From: Candidatus Scybalocola faecavium
GTDB lineage: Bacteria; Bacillota; Clostridia; Lachnospirales; Lachnospiraceae
Length of the DNA stretch: 64,000 bases
Assembly (NCBI GenBank): GCA_018713145.1
Contig: DVFP01000021.1
Span: forward strand, 1-64,000
Direction: 5' to 3'
Shown: piece by piece, positions 56,727 through 64,000 of the stretch
How positions within the stretch are numbered: the first letter of the stretch is position 1
Layout of the letters: every line of letters begins with the position of its first letter
Program-made: the position numbers and the translations under genes
Notes under the pieces: generated by a model
What the model was told of the DNA's origin: nothing
Databases searched by the model: none
What the model saw: only the letters and a program-made list of their open reading frames with translations

Positions 56727-58400
56727 CTACCGGGTATGACTATCAATCTGCTCCGCGATCTCATACAATACAATACCGTACTCCGGCACCACTGTGTCCA
56801 GGATCAGGGCATCATTTACAAAAACTGTGTCTAAAGTGATCTTTGGAACACTGGTATATTTAATATATTGGACCATTTCCGGATCAATATTTTGAGGTGA
56901 GCCGGAATCCAGCCAGGTATTATAGGTGGAGCCATAGGATTCGCACAGCTGAGTCCTTCGCAGTAAATAAGACCCTGGGGACATGACGATAGCATGATGA
57001 AAAATCAACTCTCCCGGGGAATCAAAATACCGGTTCCGTTCTGTATAAGAGGGAGCTGTGTGGGCTTCCTTAAGCCATGACTCAAAATAAAAGCAGAAAT
57101 TAAAAATAAGCAGCTGCCAGCCCTCATCGGACCGGGTTAAAATATGACAGTCATCATATTCCAGGATGGTGTCCCCCAGTCTGCGGTAAAGGGCAAGGGC
57201 AAAATAGGCGGGCTTTTTAATGCCGAGCGTATCCATAAGGCCGGGGTTTCCGCTGAACATCCGGTCATCGGGATAAAGCTCGTCATTAGTATCATATAAA
57301 GTCCAGTAGGACAGACCGGCGCTGTCCTTTAGGGAATGAATAAAGGTATAAATCATATAAGGTCCCATAAAGCATGTATCCCGGGCATAGTCGCAGGGTA
57401 GATAGGATAGATTCCAGCTCATGGAAATCACAGGAAGTTCTCCAAAGCCCATGTGTCTGGAAAGCTCTTTCAGATCATGAAAGGTCTTTTCAGGGAGGTC
57501 CTTATTATAAGGAACAGAAAATGCCTCGCTTTGGGTTCTCGTCTGGGGAAAATGCCCTTTATTTTCAAGTCCGTCAGGGCAGCAGTAGGTATGGACAGCG
57601 ATATAATCCGGAAAAATATTATTTTTTCTGCAATAATCAAAAAACGCGGTGTACCAGTCCGTACCGCCGGGCATGGAGAAAGCCGGGGTTCCCATAATGA
57701 TGGCTTCATCGACTTTTTTAACCGCCTGCCAGGTGGCTTTATAAAATCTGAAAAAATCTTCCTGAGACTCATACCAGTAAGCCTCCTCAAGAGCCAGATT
57801 GGGACTGGTCCAGAAATCAAAATACCATGTATGTACCTGATTTTGTCCGTACCGGCGGATACAGTGGAGCATAAACTGAGACACAAGATCCGACCACCGG
57901 CTTAAAGATTTGGGAGAGCTGACATTGGGATGATACTGCCATCCGCAGGTCTGCTTTTTAGAGGCAAGGGAGCCGGGCATAAAGCCAATCTCCATGACAG
58001 GCTTTATGTTAAGGGAGACGAGAAAATCCAGGACCATATCAATGTAATTCCAGTTGTACCGCACATTATGATCCCCGTCCTCAAAATAAATGTACAGATC
58101 ATCTGAGAAAATATCCCGAATGCGCAGATAATCAAATTTCAGTTCCTGCCTGGCTGTGCGGATGGCCTCCTGCACATTGCTCTTAAGACAGCTGACAGCC
58201 CGCCCGCAAGTATTGATCTTTAACTGGCGGTTTTTAAGCAACGGCTTTTGACTGAGAAGATCTGTGCGCAGGGAAATATATTTTTGGCGGGTTTCATTTT
58301 GGCCATGGTGCATGGACCGGTTCCAGAAACGCTGGAAAAACTGGAAGTAGTTTTTTACATTAAATGGAATCTCCTCATACTGGATAGGGGGAAACCAGAT
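56727..58400 (-). CDS. GH39-like domain, apparent C-terminal part of an AraC-GH39 fusion; predicted catalytically inactive
   Basis: GH39-like throughout (LNIKPVMEIGFMPGSLAS, WYFDFWTSPNL, LPVISMSWNLSY, DSAGLSYWTLYDTNDE); ORF track opens upstream to 58643 but that part overlaps the AraC HTH in another frame. Confidence 0.8.
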   Translation of the reverse strand: MWFPPIQYEEIPFNVKNYFQFFQRFWNRSMHHGQNETRQKYISLRTDLLSQKPLLKNRQLKINTCGRAVSCLKSNVQEAIRTARQELKFDYLRIRDIFSDDLYIYFEDGDHNVRYNWNYIDMVLDFLVSLNIKPVMEIGFMPGSLASKKQTCGWQYHPNVSSPKSLSRWSDLVSQFMLHCIRRYGQNQVHTWYFDFWTSPNLALEEAYWYESQEDFFRFYKATWQAVKKVDEAIIMGTPAFSMPGGTDWYTAFFDYCRKNNIFPDYIAVHTYCCPDGLENKGHFPQTRTQSEAFSVPYNKDLPEKTFHDLKELSRHMGFGELPVISMSWNLSYLPCDYARDTCFMGPYMIYTFIHSLKDSAGLSYWTLYDTNDELYPDDRMFSGNPGLMDTLGIKKPAYFALALYRRLGDTILEYDDCHILTRSDEGWQLLIFNFCFYFESWLKEAHTAPSYTERNRYFDSPGELIFHHAIVMSPGSYLLRRTQLCESYGSTYNTWLDSGSPQNIDPEMVQYIKYTSVPKITLDTVFVNDALILDTVVPEYGIVLYEIAEQIDSHTR

Positions 58401-59229
58401 GATTATGGTTTTGTGCCAGCTTCTTTCGGAAAGCAGAGGGCGTTGTCTGATAATACTTTTTAAAACAGGCGCTGTAAGTCTTGTGGTCTCCAAAACCACA
58501 GGAAAGAGCAATATCTGTAATGGAATTTTCCGGATTGACCAGAGACAGAAGGGATTTCTGCACCCGATAAAAGTTAAGATATTCCACAAAACTTTTATTA
58601 AAATGCTTTTTAAAAAATGCGGAAAAATACTGGGGATGGACACCTACATAATCGGCAATGTCTTTTAAAGTGATTTTCTCCATATAGTTTTCATTAATAT
58701 ACCACAGTGTCCGGACGATGCGCTGGCGGGAATAGGAGCCGGCAAAAACGCTTTGGGCAGGTTCACATCCATACCGGTCAAGAAGGATGGACATAATGGA
58801 AGCTGCGGCGCTGACCATATGAAGATGGGATGTGGCTCTTACATTAATGGTATAAAAAACAAATTGGGAAATTTCCCGGGCAACTTGGTAATAAAGGGGA
58901 TCATCCAGATTGCAGCGAAGCTGATATTCACTAAAGCTGGTACATTCTTTGGCAGGACAGTAACTTTCAACAAAATCCCGGGTAATTTCCAGGATCAGCA
59001 TACAGCTTTCCCCATGAAGGGGAGTAAAGGCGTATAGTTCATATGGTGGAATAAAGCAAATGTCATTTGTCCTTAAAATATGCTGGCTGTCAGATAATGT
59101 GAGCGCAAATTCCCCATTAAGGATAAATGAGATCATATAACATTCACTGAACCGGCTGGCAGAATCAAATTCCCACTGGACATGCTGGGTAAAGGGGAGC
59201 TGATTTAAAGAAAACATATCTGTTGCCAT
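58375..59229 (-). CDS. AraC family regulator (cupin + HTH), N-terminal part of apparent AraC-GH39 fusion
   Basis: YMEKITLKDIADYVGVHPQYFSAFFKKHFNKSFVEYLNFYRVQKSLLSLVNPENSITDIALSCGFGDHKTYSACFKKYYQTTPSAFRKKL. Confidence 0.93.
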   Translation of the reverse strand: MATDMFSLNQLPFTQHVQWEFDSASRFSECYMISFILNGEFALTLSDSQHILRTNDICFIPPYELYAFTPLHGESCMLILEITRDFVESYCPAKECTSFSEYQLRCNLDDPLYYQVAREISQFVFYTINVRATSHLHMVSAAASIMSILLDRYGCEPAQSVFAGSYSRQRIVRTLWYINENYMEKITLKDIADYVGVHPQYFSAFFKKHFNKSFVEYLNFYRVQKSLLSLVNPENSITDIALSCGFGDHKTYSACFKKYYQTTPSAFRKKLAQNHNHLVSPYPV

Positions 59230-59552
59230 AATCCATGTCCTTTCTTTTTAATCTTCCTTCATTATATTCTAATTTCCTATAAAAATCAGCCATGCACTTT
59301 AAAAATCGTGATAATATACAAAAATTAATATTCAAAATTGATAAATAGGATAAACGAGGCGTTTTGTAAGATAAATTTCTGATATTCGTCTGAAATTATA
59401 AGATTACCTTTGGGACAAAAATAAGAATATTGCATTTTTAACTATAAAATCATAAAATCAAGGAAGTTTTTGGCTAATATTGAAGATATAATACACTCAT
59501 ATTGTGGTTGCTTTATTAATTCTGCATATTCTGTGAAGAAGAGGTGATGTAA

Positions 59553-61073
59553 ATGGGTGGTAAAAATAGCCAGGGCGCATTGATTTTCGAGAGCCGAGGC
59601 TTGTGCAAAAATTTCGGCCCCACAGTAGCTTTGGACCATGTGGATTTTAAGGTCTACCGGGGACAGATCACAGGTCTCATTGGTGAAAACGGCTCAGGAA
59701 AATCAACCATCACATCCATTGCGGCAGGGATGCAGCCGCCAACATCCGGAGAGATGTTTTTTAATGGAAAGCCCCATAAGCCATCCAGTATGATCGAAGG
59801 CGCCAAACTGGGCATAGGCATGATCGTCCAGGAACAGGGAACGATTTCAGGAATCACTGTGGCCCAGAATATTTTCCTGGGAGAGGAAGATCAGTTTAGG
59901 ACCATGGGAATGATCAGCCGGTCAAAGATGAACAGTGCAGCCAAAAAAGCGTTGGAGGATATAGGTTATACTCATGCAGATCCGTCCGCTTTGATCGACA
60001 CGTTAAATTTTCAGGACCGGAAGCTTGTGGAGATCGCGAAGGTGGTCTACAACAAACCGGAAATGCTTGTGGTAGATGAGACAACAACAGCACTGTCCCA
60101 AAGCGGCCGTACCATTGTCTATAATCTTATGAGAAAGATGCGGGATGAAAATAAGGCGGTTGTATTTATTTCCCATGACCTGGAGGAACTTATTGAAATC
60201 TGCGACACACTGACCGTACTCTGTGACGGTGTTTTGATCACTACTCTGGACCGTTCTCAGATGGACCCGGATAATATTAAAAAGTATATGGTAGGCCGGG
60301 AAATGAAGGGAGATTACTACCGCAGCGATTATGACAGCAAGGAAAGCCGGGAAGTTGTCCTTGAGGCGGATCAGGTCACTTCAGGAACCGGGATGCTTAT
60401 GAATTTTTCCATGAAGGTTTACAAAGGAGAAATCTTAGGGATCGGTGGTCTGTCCCACTGTGGTATGCATGAGCTGGGGAAGGTGCTTTTTGGAGATGAA
60501 AAGCTGCTTACCGGCCAGGTGATCCATAAGGCCTCCGGGGAAAAGATTACCACGCCTTTAAATGCCATGAAGCATGGTCTGGGCTATGTGTCCAAGGACA
60601 GAGACCGGGAATCCTTAGTGCTTACGGCTGCGATTAAAGATAATATTATTTCGGCAAGCTATGATAAGCTGGCGCCGAAAGGCATTATGAAAACCTCCAG
60701 TGTGCGCAGGTTTGTAGATGAGCAGGTAAAGAGCCTGTCCATAAAATGCGCATCGGTAAATCAGGATGTCCAGTATTTGTCCGGAGGAAATAAACAGAAA
60801 GTGGTCTTTGGAAAGTGGATCGGACGCAATTGTGACATTCTTATCCTGGACTGTCCTACCCGTGGTGTGGATATTGGCGTAAAAGCATCCATGTACCAGC
60901 TGATCTATGATATGAAGCGCCAGGGAAAGACTATTATTATGATCTCGGAGGAACTGCCGGAGCTGATCGGTATGAGCGACCGTCTTCTTATATTAAAGAA
61001 TGGCCAGCTGGCCGGAGAATTTTTCAGAAGTCCGCAGCTGAGTGAAAATGAAATTATCGAAGTGATGATATAG
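59553..61073 (+). CDS. Sugar ABC transporter ATP-binding protein (two ABC domains)
   Basis: GLIGENGSGKSTITSIAAGMQPPTSGEMFFNGKPH; YLSGGNKQKVVFGKWIGRNCDILILDCPTRGVDIG. Confidence 0.95.
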   Translation: MGGKNSQGALIFESRGLCKNFGPTVALDHVDFKVYRGQITGLIGENGSGKSTITSIAAGMQPPTSGEMFFNGKPHKPSSMIEGAKLGIGMIVQEQGTISGITVAQNIFLGEEDQFRTMGMISRSKMNSAAKKALEDIGYTHADPSALIDTLNFQDRKLVEIAKVVYNKPEMLVVDETTTALSQSGRTIVYNLMRKMRDENKAVVFISHDLEELIEICDTLTVLCDGVLITTLDRSQMDPDNIKKYMVGREMKGDYYRSDYDSKESREVVLEADQVTSGTGMLMNFSMKVYKGEILGIGGLSHCGMHELGKVLFGDEKLLTGQVIHKASGEKITTPLNAMKHGLGYVSKDRDRESLVLTAAIKDNIISASYDKLAPKGIMKTSSVRRFVDEQVKSLSIKCASVNQDVQYLSGGNKQKVVFGKWIGRNCDILILDCPTRGVDIGVKASMYQLIYDMKRQGKTIIMISEELPELIGMSDRLLILKNGQLAGEFFRSPQLSENEIIEVMI

Positions 61074-61083
61074 GAGGATGTGT

Positions 61084-62055
61084 ATGAGCGCTCAAAAAAC
61101 AAAGAAAAATTTTGGCAGTCTCCCAAAGCTGGCTCCCCTTATCGGCCTGGTGCTTGTAATTGTTTTCTTTGCCATCATTACCGGAGGAAGGCTTCTGTCA
61201 GCCACCAACCTTCAAAATATGGCAAGTCAGATGATCGTTACAGCTCTGGTTGCCGTGGGCGCGGTATTTGTCTTTGGCGTAGGAAATTTTGATATGTCTC
61301 TTGGCGGCTGTGTCCTTTTATCCGCTGTGCTGGGAGCCATGGCTGCCGTAAGATCCGGAAGCCTTGTGGTCACTTTTATTGTGTGTATCGGTGTTTCTGT
61401 GGTAGTGGCTTTACTTAAGGGCATTTTCTCATCTTATGTTACGGTGCCGTTTTTTATCTTCACTATAGTATTGTCATCGGTGATCTCCTCTATCGTTCTG
61501 GTGATCATGGGCAGTGAAACAACGATTTATTTAAACGATGCGGTAAAGCCGATTCCGTCCTTTAATTTTATGCAGATCACTGTGATCAATGTGATCTGTC
61601 TGGCATTATATTTTATCGCATGTCTGTTTTTGTTTAATTATACGCCTTTAGGCAGCAAGGTAAAAATGATGGGCGGGAACCCGGTATGTGCCAATCAGTC
61701 GGGTATTAACGGGAAAAAGCTCCAGGTCATTACATTTTTAATCAGCAGTATCGGCATTGCTCTGGCAGCCTTTATCCTGATTATCCGTACCCGGACGATC
61801 GGCTCTGCCACCGCAGGCTCTACCGGAACCGATGTGATGATCGCCCTGGTTTTAGGGGGCATGCCCATTTCCGGAGGCCCTAAGTCTAAGATCAGCGCCG
61901 GACTTGTGGGAGCTTTGATTATTACTGTATTAAACAGCGGATTGACGATTATGGGATTATCTACAGGCATTATCCAGATCCTTCGTGGTGTTGTCTTTGT
62001 AGCCGTAGTTCTTGTGGCCAGCTTCAGTTACAGAAGCAAGCTGCTTCCAAGATGA
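61084..62055 (+). CDS. ABC transporter permease (sugar/ribose type)
   Basis: TNLQNMASQMIVTALVAVGAVFVFGVGNFDMSLGGCVLLSAVLGAM; TRTIGSATAGSTGTDVMIALVLGGMPISGG. Confidence 0.93.
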   Translation: MSAQKTKKNFGSLPKLAPLIGLVLVIVFFAIITGGRLLSATNLQNMASQMIVTALVAVGAVFVFGVGNFDMSLGGCVLLSAVLGAMAAVRSGSLVVTFIVCIGVSVVVALLKGIFSSYVTVPFFIFTIVLSSVISSIVLVIMGSETTIYLNDAVKPIPSFNFMQITVINVICLALYFIACLFLFNYTPLGSKVKMMGGNPVCANQSGINGKKLQVITFLISSIGIALAAFILIIRTRTIGSATAGSTGTDVMIALVLGGMPISGGPKSKISAGLVGALIITVLNSGLTIMGLSTGIIQILRGVVFVAVVLVASFSYRSKLLPR

Positions 62056-62128: not shown

Positions 62129-63382
62129 ATGAAAGTATGGAAAAGATTTGGAGCATTAGCATTATCCGCAGCAATGGTTATGGGAATGGCAGCCTGCGGT
62201 TCAGACAGCGGCTCTTCCACAGATACTCAGGCCGGCTCAGATGCGGGAACAGTTTCCGATGACGGCTCTCAGGCAGCGGATGACGGGGCATCCGGGGATG
62301 AGGGCGGTTCCGCATCCGGGGCATTTGCTTTAGACGGCACATGGCCGGAGGAAACCGTAAAGATCGGTTTTGTGGCTTATGATACGACTGCAGAGCAGTA
62401 TCTGGCATGTATGGATTATTTTGATTATCTTTCCCAGTATTTTAATATTGAGATCATGTCCTCTGAAAGCCTGGCAGATGCAGAAGGAGAGCTGAACTTT
62501 ATTTCAGACTGTGCTTCTGCCGGCTGCAAGGCGATCATCGGTTACTATAATGAAGCTAAGGCTGAGTCCGCAAAGGCTGCCATGGATCTTGGCATGTACT
62601 ACTGGGGCGGCTTTGGCGGCGATGAGGATGCCTATAACGAGGTTAAGGATAATGAGCTTTACCTTGGCGGTTACACCTTAGGCGATGCAGAGTATAACGC
62701 AGGTAAGAGTATGGCTGAGGCCCTTATTGAGCAGGGCTGTGAAAAGCTTGTTCTTTGCTCCGGCGGCGCTTCCTTTGGCGTCAGCATGTTTGTAGACCGT
62801 AAAGCAGGTTTTGAGGATGCTGTGGCAGAGGCACAGGAAGCCGGTCAGAGTGTTGAGATCGTATATGAAATCGAAGGATGGCCGGGAACCGACTCCTTTA
62901 CAGCAGATCAGACGGCAGTTCTTGATATGGATATTGACGCTATTGCATCCACCTTTGACGCTGCAATGTGGTTCCAGCCTTTAATGAACTCTGATAAAGC
63001 AGACACTGTAAAGTTGGCAGCTATTGGTGAAGTTAATGATACATATTATGATTTCTTTAATGACGGTGTTGTAACCTGTATCGTTTACGACTGTGAAGAG
63101 GTTGTTTTCGGAAATGCTATTCCTATGATCTTAAACGCAGTTAATGGTGACGCGGATGTGGTGCGCAACGATGACGGAACTGCAGCTCTGTTCCCGGTTC
63201 AGCGGTGGATCGTGACAGACATTGACAATTATAACGCGATTTATGATCTCCATGACAGCGGCGAGTTTGTTGTTTCCGCTGAGGATGTGGCAAATCTGAT
63301 TAAAGCGTATAATCCGGATACTACAGCCCAGCAGTTCTTTGATTTTTACGGCAATATTTCTGTAGACTCCGTAAGTGAATAA
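62129..63382 (+). CDS. Sugar ABC transporter substrate-binding lipoprotein
   Basis: Lipobox MGMAACGS, low-complexity linker, periplasmic-binding-protein-like domain. Confidence 0.9.
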   Translation: MKVWKRFGALALSAAMVMGMAACGSDSGSSTDTQAGSDAGTVSDDGSQAADDGASGDEGGSASGAFALDGTWPEETVKIGFVAYDTTAEQYLACMDYFDYLSQYFNIEIMSSESLADAEGELNFISDCASAGCKAIIGYYNEAKAESAKAAMDLGMYYWGGFGGDEDAYNEVKDNELYLGGYTLGDAEYNAGKSMAEALIEQGCEKLVLCSGGASFGVSMFVDRKAGFEDAVAEAQEAGQSVEIVYEIEGWPGTDSFTADQTAVLDMDIDAIASTFDAAMWFQPLMNSDKADTVKLAAIGEVNDTYYDFFNDGVVTCIVYDCEEVVFGNAIPMILNAVNGDADVVRNDDGTAALFPVQRWIVTDIDNYNAIYDLHDSGEFVVSAEDVANLIKAYNPDTTAQQFFDFYGNISVDSVSE

Positions 63383-63398
63383 GTAAGGGGTTTTGTTT

Positions 63399-64000
63399 AT
63401 GGGAAACTTGGCGAAAAAAGGTTTAAAAAATGTCCTTATGACCATTGCCATACCGGTGCTGACCTATCTGTTTTTTAAGATCGTGTGTACCCTTACCGGT
63501 CACCCGGATTTCGGGATAGGCTCAGACCTGCAGACTATTTTATATACCACCTTATATTCCGGGCTGATTGCCCTGGCCATGTCCTATAACCTGACCTGCG
63601 GACGTTTTGATTTTTCTGTGGGAGCAACCATTTTGCTGTCAGGCATTGTGGGAGGAAATATTGCAAAGGATATGGATCTGGGGGCCCTGGGCCTTCTGGT
63701 GTGTGTCGTGGCCATCGCTCTGGTGTGCGGACTGATCTCCGGACTGCTTTACGTGCTCCTTGGCCTTCCGCCGATGGTTGTGTCCATCGGTGTGACGATG
63801 GTTTATGAAGCAATCGGTTTAATGTATAATAAATCCAAAGGCGTCCGGCTCATTGGTAAAAATGATATGCTTGTCTTTGCCAGACCGCCCTATAGTGTGC
63901 TGGTTGTGTTGATTGCCGTGGCTGTGCTCATCCTGCTTTTTAATTTTACAAAGTTTGGTTATAACTGGCGGGCGCTGCGCAGCGGGCAGAAGATTGCCGT
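63399..64000 (+). CDS. Second ABC transporter permease, truncated by window end
   Basis: MGNLAKKGLKNVLMTIAIPVLTYLFFK...YNLTCGRFDFSVGATILLSGIVGGNIAKD...; no stop before 64000; absent from the ORF track. Confidence 0.88.
   Translation, partial: MGNLAKKGLKNVLMTIAIPVLTYLFFKIVCTLTGHPDFGIGSDLQTILYTTLYSGLIALAMSYNLTCGRFDFSVGATILLSGIVGGNIAKDMDLGALGLLVCVVAIALVCGLISGLLYVLLGLPPMVVSIGVTMVYEAIGLMYNKSKGVRLIGKNDMLVFARPPYSVLVVLIAVAVLILLFNFTKFGYNWRALRSGQKIA

Follow-up and report, generated by a model that had tools for sequence, protein, structure and literature searches.

Can a glycoside hydrolase fold that has lost both catalytic residues serve a transcriptional regulator as its sensor? The question is raised by a locus on the minus strand of the window, that is, the whole 64,000-nucleotide stretch of Candidatus Scybalocola faecavium DNA analysed here. 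An earlier note had recognised there a GH39-like domain with both catalytic glutamates replaced, attached to an AraC DNA-binding region, and had read it as an inactive xylosidase fold reused to bind an oligosaccharide and control transcription, with xylo-oligosaccharides as the ligands to try.

A GH39 Fold without Its Catalytic Glutamates

The regulator and its catalytic positions lie as follows.

58375–59229, minus strand: AraC-family N-terminal part, cupin-like plus two-HTH DNA-binding region; a 284-aa ORF stopping at a frameshift
56727–58373, minus strand: GH39-fold domain, TIM barrel plus beta domain (Pfam, PDB sequence match, AF2 and Foldseek)
57804–57806, minus strand: Ser codon at the acid/base Glu (XynB2 E160), Ser 190 of the GH39 frame; S/C/A/T/G across the clade described below
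57417–57419, minus strand: Ser codon at the nucleophile Glu (XynB2 E278), Ser 319 of the GH39 frame; D/S/N/H in 18 of the 19 clade rows

The AraC ORF has the two-HTH profile of the AraC/XylS family, with HTH_18 (E = 8e-20) and HTH_AraC above the Pfam cut-off and AraC_binding below it (E = 0.003). The GH39 frame belongs to its family by both profile and fold: it matches Pfam Glyco_hydro_39 with E = 1.3e-58 and the solved GH39 xylosidases with E of about 1e-57 in an alignment spanning the full domain, and the AlphaFold model of this part (pLDDT 82.6) adopts the GH39 fold, closest to XynB 2bs9/1px8 (Foldseek E = 3e-43, TM by target 0.86–0.87). The GH39 assignment of the earlier note is confirmed. 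The full-length model of the congener had a low pTM of 0.59, and the domain arrangement was therefore not used.

In the alignment to the solved xylosidases WNEPNL becomes WTSPNL and ITEYN becomes SMSWN. Neither the acid/base Glu (WNEP) nor the nucleophile Glu (TE[YFW]N) of an active GH39 enzyme is present, and the two serines fall exactly on the codons to which the earlier note had assigned them. To judge by its sequence, the window GH39 domain is catalytically dead.

The Window Clade among GH39 Proteins

In a quick tree the window protein falls in a 19-row clade (SH-aLRT 99) from Lachnospiraceae, Eubacterium ramulus, and Konateibacter, and all free-standing enzymes lie on one side of a single branch. 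Nineteen loci were drawn from species-representative genomes: Lachnospiraceae and other Clostridia MAGs together with E. ramulus ATCC 29099, Konateibacter massiliensis, and the congener Candidatus Scybalocola faecigallinarum. In the 19 clade rows the acid/base column holds Ser in 11 rows, Cys in three, Ala in three, Thr in one, and Gly in one; the nucleophile column holds Asp in 13, Ser in two, Asn in two, His in one, and Glu in one, L087 being the member that retains it.

Both glutamates are kept in all 37 free-standing GH39 proteins versus 16 of 59 AraC-GH39 fusions (Fisher p = 5e-14; the window is counted among the fusions, and three rows without the catalytic columns are omitted). Among the other fusions, 22 are without the acid/base Glu only, two without the nucleophile only, and 19 without both. 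A truncated row, L048 (2–1474), which looks free-standing and is without the acid/base Glu, was excluded as a probable fusion fragment. A survey of AraC-GH39 fusions, suggested by the earlier note, does recover the double loss, although the loss of one or both residues is common and not special to the window gene. The scan of genome contigs used one pattern that included the altered acid/base motif. The double loss is not merely a selection bias: about 13 loci from the contig scan also match FSDDL, an independent pattern, and proteins were searched without any motif pattern.

The window's genome contains five further AraC-GH39 fusions (L001, L002, L004, L005, and L006), two with both glutamates and three without the acid/base Glu. 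In L094 (9008–14228) a pseudo-GH39 regulator adjoins a free-standing GH39 protein with both glutamates, a natural paired comparison.

The Divergent Operon and the GH78 Neighbourhood

The genes transcribed away from the regulator are the following.

59553–61073, plus strand: sugar ABC transporter ATPase of the RbsA/XylG/AraG type, divergent from the regulator (ABC_tran, E = 1.5e-36)
61078–62055, plus strand: sugar ABC permease 1 (BPD_transp_2, profile match)
62129–63382, plus strand: substrate-binding lipoprotein of the transporter (position and synteny; lipobox-like AAC)
63393–64000, plus strand: sugar ABC permease 2, continuing beyond the window end (contig C7 63393–64409)
contig C7 64428–67199: GH78 alpha-L-rhamnosidase, following permease 2 and starting 428 bases beyond the window end

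The best NCBIfam match of the ATPase is a xylose/arabinose ABC ATPase, below the cut-off. Despite its clear synteny and position, the lipoprotein matches nothing in Pfam at E = 0.001, and it may represent an unrecognised solute-binding protein family. No obvious signal peptide was seen by eye in the GH78 protein, so cleavage is probably cytoplasmic.

The usual order, found at most testable loci and confirmed by Pfam, is the regulator divergent from the ABC ATPase, permease, binding protein, permease, and GH78. A GH78 gene stands beside the regulator at 14 of 15 testable clade loci versus none of eight other AraC-GH39 loci, each represented by 14–18 kb of sequence (p = 2e-5); five loci cut by contig ends were left out of this count. 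There are variants: in E. ramulus a GPH symporter and GH78 replace the ABC arrangement, and the GH78 at the regulator locus is the sole one detected in the genome; in L089 a GH2-like enzyme, named by eye, takes the place of GH78; and in L094 the operon is rearranged, with GH78 farther off. Past the GH78 gene, beyond the window, contig C7 carries a second AraC fusion of 772 aa (68817–71132, minus strand; L064 16817–19132), whose C-terminus has no Pfam match and resembles GH39 xylosidases weakly (E = 6e-4), with the acid/base loop seemingly missing.

The Pfam RhaA L-rhamnose isomerase was not found in the window genome, the congener, or E. ramulus (G000, G373, and G159; three of the five genomes searched). 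Rhamnose itself may for this reason not be the nutrient. The missing match suggests that the cell may be after the aglycone or partner sugar, as with flavonoid rutinosides, or that it employs a different isomerase. The genomes without a RhaA match still carry GH78, with 9–10 Pfam matches in the two congeners and one in E. ramulus.

A Candidate Operator

The divergent intergenic regions of the clade contain a 16-bp word near TCTTATTTTTTTGGAC, repeated directly at exactly 32 bp. In the window its halves are:

59388–59403, minus strand: putative operator half-site 1, TCTTATAATTTCAGAC (clade motif)
59356–59371, minus strand: putative operator half-site 2, TCTTACAAAACGCCTC; a degenerate copy lying 32 bp from the first, with equal spacing in the congener L077

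With a matrix in which no spacing is encoded, the 32-bp spacing scored 117.8 against 35.4 for the next one, and none of eight shuffled sets exceeded 21.9. About 10 of 17 loci have a strong repeat, constant in orientation, and several have a weak one. In the window and the congener the clade matrix is not passed by both halves, half-site 2 falling short in the window, and TCTTA is kept at the 32-bp distance. Early motif searches caught the ATPase coding sequence, and a leave-one-out version with few starts found ribosome-binding sites and other optima, the 32-bp spacing being best in four loci only; the repeat is clear only after trimming of coding ends and ribosome-binding sites, and its consensus is provisional and without cross-validation. 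Scanning the same intergenic DNA for promoters yielded nothing above the chance level.

The Remodelled Pocket

Pocket positions were taken from the substrate-binding residues reported in PMC7242879 plus a few neighbours, mapped to XynB2 by sequence alignment. Within the clade they are conserved at 0.83 versus 0.60 for the remaining columns, and none of 5000 random sets scored as high. One replacement is uniform:

58116–58118, minus strand: Arg codon at the pocket position of XynB2 H53; all 19 clade rows have Arg here, against His in 33 of 33 free-standing GH39 proteins

The equivalents of H228 and Y230 are retained in the clade, and that of N280 mostly. Among the changed positions, G54 is replaced by Asp or Asn, N159 by Thr (17 of 19), F166 by Tyr (18 of 19), and F337 by Pro (17 of 19), and E323 is mostly Asp; R86, D/N87, T189, Y199, and P377 stand as near-invariant new pocket residues. 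With the GH39 beta-xylosidases (XynB2, PDB 2bs9/2bfg; XacXynB, 6uqj) the window protein has in common the fold and the H228, Y230, and N280 equivalents; unlike them, it belongs with an AraC part and has both catalytic glutamates and the xylose-pocket residues H53, N159, F321, and F337 replaced, W315 in part. Such a pattern would be expected of a pocket under selection to bind something else, not of one in decay.

The ligand first considered fares poorly here. Xylo-oligosaccharides were rejected as first choice on two grounds: the genes linked to the regulator code for a sugar importer plus an alpha-L-rhamnosidase, and the xylose-pocket residues have been lost. This synteny and these missing residues would suit a rhamnoside-responsive regulator.

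Proposed Working of the Regulator

The fold, the double Glu loss, the conservation of the altered pocket, the synteny, and the repeat are computed, and the scheme built on them adds, by inference, the identity of the ligand, its binding, activation rather than repression, and cytoplasmic cleavage. In intact relatives a single protein of about 840 residues combines the AraC-type regulator with a GH39 fold devoid of both catalytic glutamates. The divergent ABC transporter would import an intact rhamnose-containing glycoside, which the dead GH39 pocket would hold uncut; the glycoside-bound regulator would then attach to, or work from, the operator formed by the 32-bp direct repeat between the genes, turning on the transporter-rhamnosidase operon, until cytoplasmic GH78 cut the glycoside and ended the signal. 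We give a probability of about 60% to this main reading, a pseudo-glycosidase regulator whose dead GH39 pocket senses an imported rhamnoside and switches on the operon for its uptake and cleavage. The more specific proposal, that a gut-bacterial AraC clade has made GH39 into a non-cutting receptor for an intact rhamnose-containing plant glycoside and, acting at the 32-bp direct-repeat operator, thereby drives expression of its own importer and rhamnosidase, is in our judgement evenly poised. The idea of an inactive GH39 fold as an AraC sensor thus survives well, supported by the clade, the altered yet conserved pocket, the synteny, and the operator-like repeat, and it parts company with its xylo-oligosaccharide ligand.

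Several observations run counter to the main reading: the nucleophile Glu persists in one clade member (L087), a GH2 enzyme takes the place of GH78 at one locus (L089), the window copy is frameshifted, the putative operator has a degenerate form in the window and a weak one in several loci, and the window genome, the congener, and E. ramulus gave no Pfam RhaA match. The N-terminal cupin could also be the real sensor. In classical AraC regulators the ligand is sensed by the N-terminal domain, and the GH39 part might accordingly be a structural or oligomerisation module only, L-rhamnose or the glycoside being sensed by the cupin-like domain. This is the strongest of the alternatives, though an unlikely one: an AraC-like N-terminal domain does lie upstream of the HTH region, as a weak match, and that region can be aligned across the clade, but a mere scaffold would not need a pocket that ranks among the most conserved positions of its domain and carries clade-specific new residues.

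The Frameshift in the Window Copy

The main reading, in which the GH39 pocket is the sensor, must also accommodate the state of the gene in the window, where the AraC and GH39 parts occupy different frames.

58387–58391, minus strand: C5 homopolymer with one extra base, C4 in the congener (pairwise alignment with L057/L077, three-frame translation)

The extra C puts the AraC frame one base off the GH39 frame in the window contig, and the first 85–90 or so residues of the 638-aa ORF starting at 58643 are AraC sequence read out of frame. In the orthologue from Candidatus Scybalocola faecigallinarum, 80% identical, the whole gene is a single 840-aa ORF, and the remaining clade members likewise have AraC and GH39 fused in a single ORF. 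The str operon (fusA, tuf) beside the regulator and the divergent ABC operon are both kept in the congener, which identifies the window gene as a true orthologue of the congener gene. The attachment of GH39 to the AraC region, as first described, consequently holds for the congener and the other relatives, and in the window it is interrupted by a one-base frameshift. Programmed frameshifting at the C run was rejected, the shift being absent from other members and the next codon not being a stop. Because the contig belongs to a draft genome that is only 80.7% complete, a sequence error and a recent mutation are both possible, and the window copy may be either a recently broken gene or an error of this kind.

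That frameshift is also what would favour regarding the window gene as a decaying pseudogene whose serines arose by neutral decay. We consider this improbable, more so than the scaffold: the Ser/Ser pair is found in the intact congener as well, the double Glu loss is common to the clade, the dN/dS of the GH39 part against the congener is about 0.06 (indicative only, dS being near saturation), and the shift sits in a homopolymer of a draft assembly. Least probable, and very unlikely, is a weak or unusual enzyme whose Asp at the nucleophile position acts on activated substrates, in a bifunctional enzyme-regulator family with the window copy as an exception; Asp in 13 of the 19 clade rows and Glu in one would suit it, but the acid/base Glu is missing from all 19, Thr replaces the preceding N159 in 17 of them, Ser occupies both positions in the window and the congener, and no clade-wide new Glu or Asp is seen at the two catalytic motifs.

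Relation to Known Systems

The preferred reading, a regulator with a non-cutting GH39 receptor, has its nearest described counterpart in AryK of Staphylococcus (NCBIfam NF047455; PMC3922988), which likewise joins a GH39-like C-terminus to an AraC-type N-terminus and for which genetic work showed an effect on central metabolism and on exotoxin genes (PMC3922988). The AryK model matches both halves of the window regulator (E = 8e-32 for the AraC ORF), at scores far short of its cut-off of 850 bits: 110 for the AraC ORF, 42 for the GH39 ORF, and 162 for the intact congener. Two AryK-like relatives show other partial losses, one keeping an acid/base-like SEP motif and the other the nucleophile motif. 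An AraC-like domain has been noted N-terminal in some GH39 proteins (PMC8543862). AraC-GH39 fusions in general share the domain order and length of the window clade, 16 of 59 having both glutamates; the clade differs from them in its separate supported branch, the double loss, and the rhamnosidase synteny.

RhaS/RhaR and other rhamnose regulators (PMC3870299) are also of the AraC family, linked to rhamnose genes, and served by repeat-type operators, reported as inverted 17-bp repeats in E. coli RhaR or as direct repeats with 21-bp periodicity; the putative operator of the window clade, a direct repeat of 32 bp, is unlike these, and GH39 is not mentioned in that paper. A literature search by title and abstract, with subscription papers mostly outside its scope, found no study of an AraC-GH39 or AraC-glycoside hydrolase pseudoenzyme sensor. 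Judging from the proteins compared here, degenerate AraC-GH39 proteins are widespread, AryK-like relatives included; what is new is a coherent clade united by the double loss, in which the pocket has been remodelled and to which a defined target operon and a candidate operator can be assigned.

Glycoside hydrolase pseudo-enzymes are poorly documented as ligand sensors in one-component regulators. If the main reading is true, the clade would offer a genetically tractable sensor of dietary rhamnosides in bacteria of the gut, among them E. ramulus, which degrades flavonoids, and would show why many "GH39" annotations on AraC proteins should not count as xylosidases.
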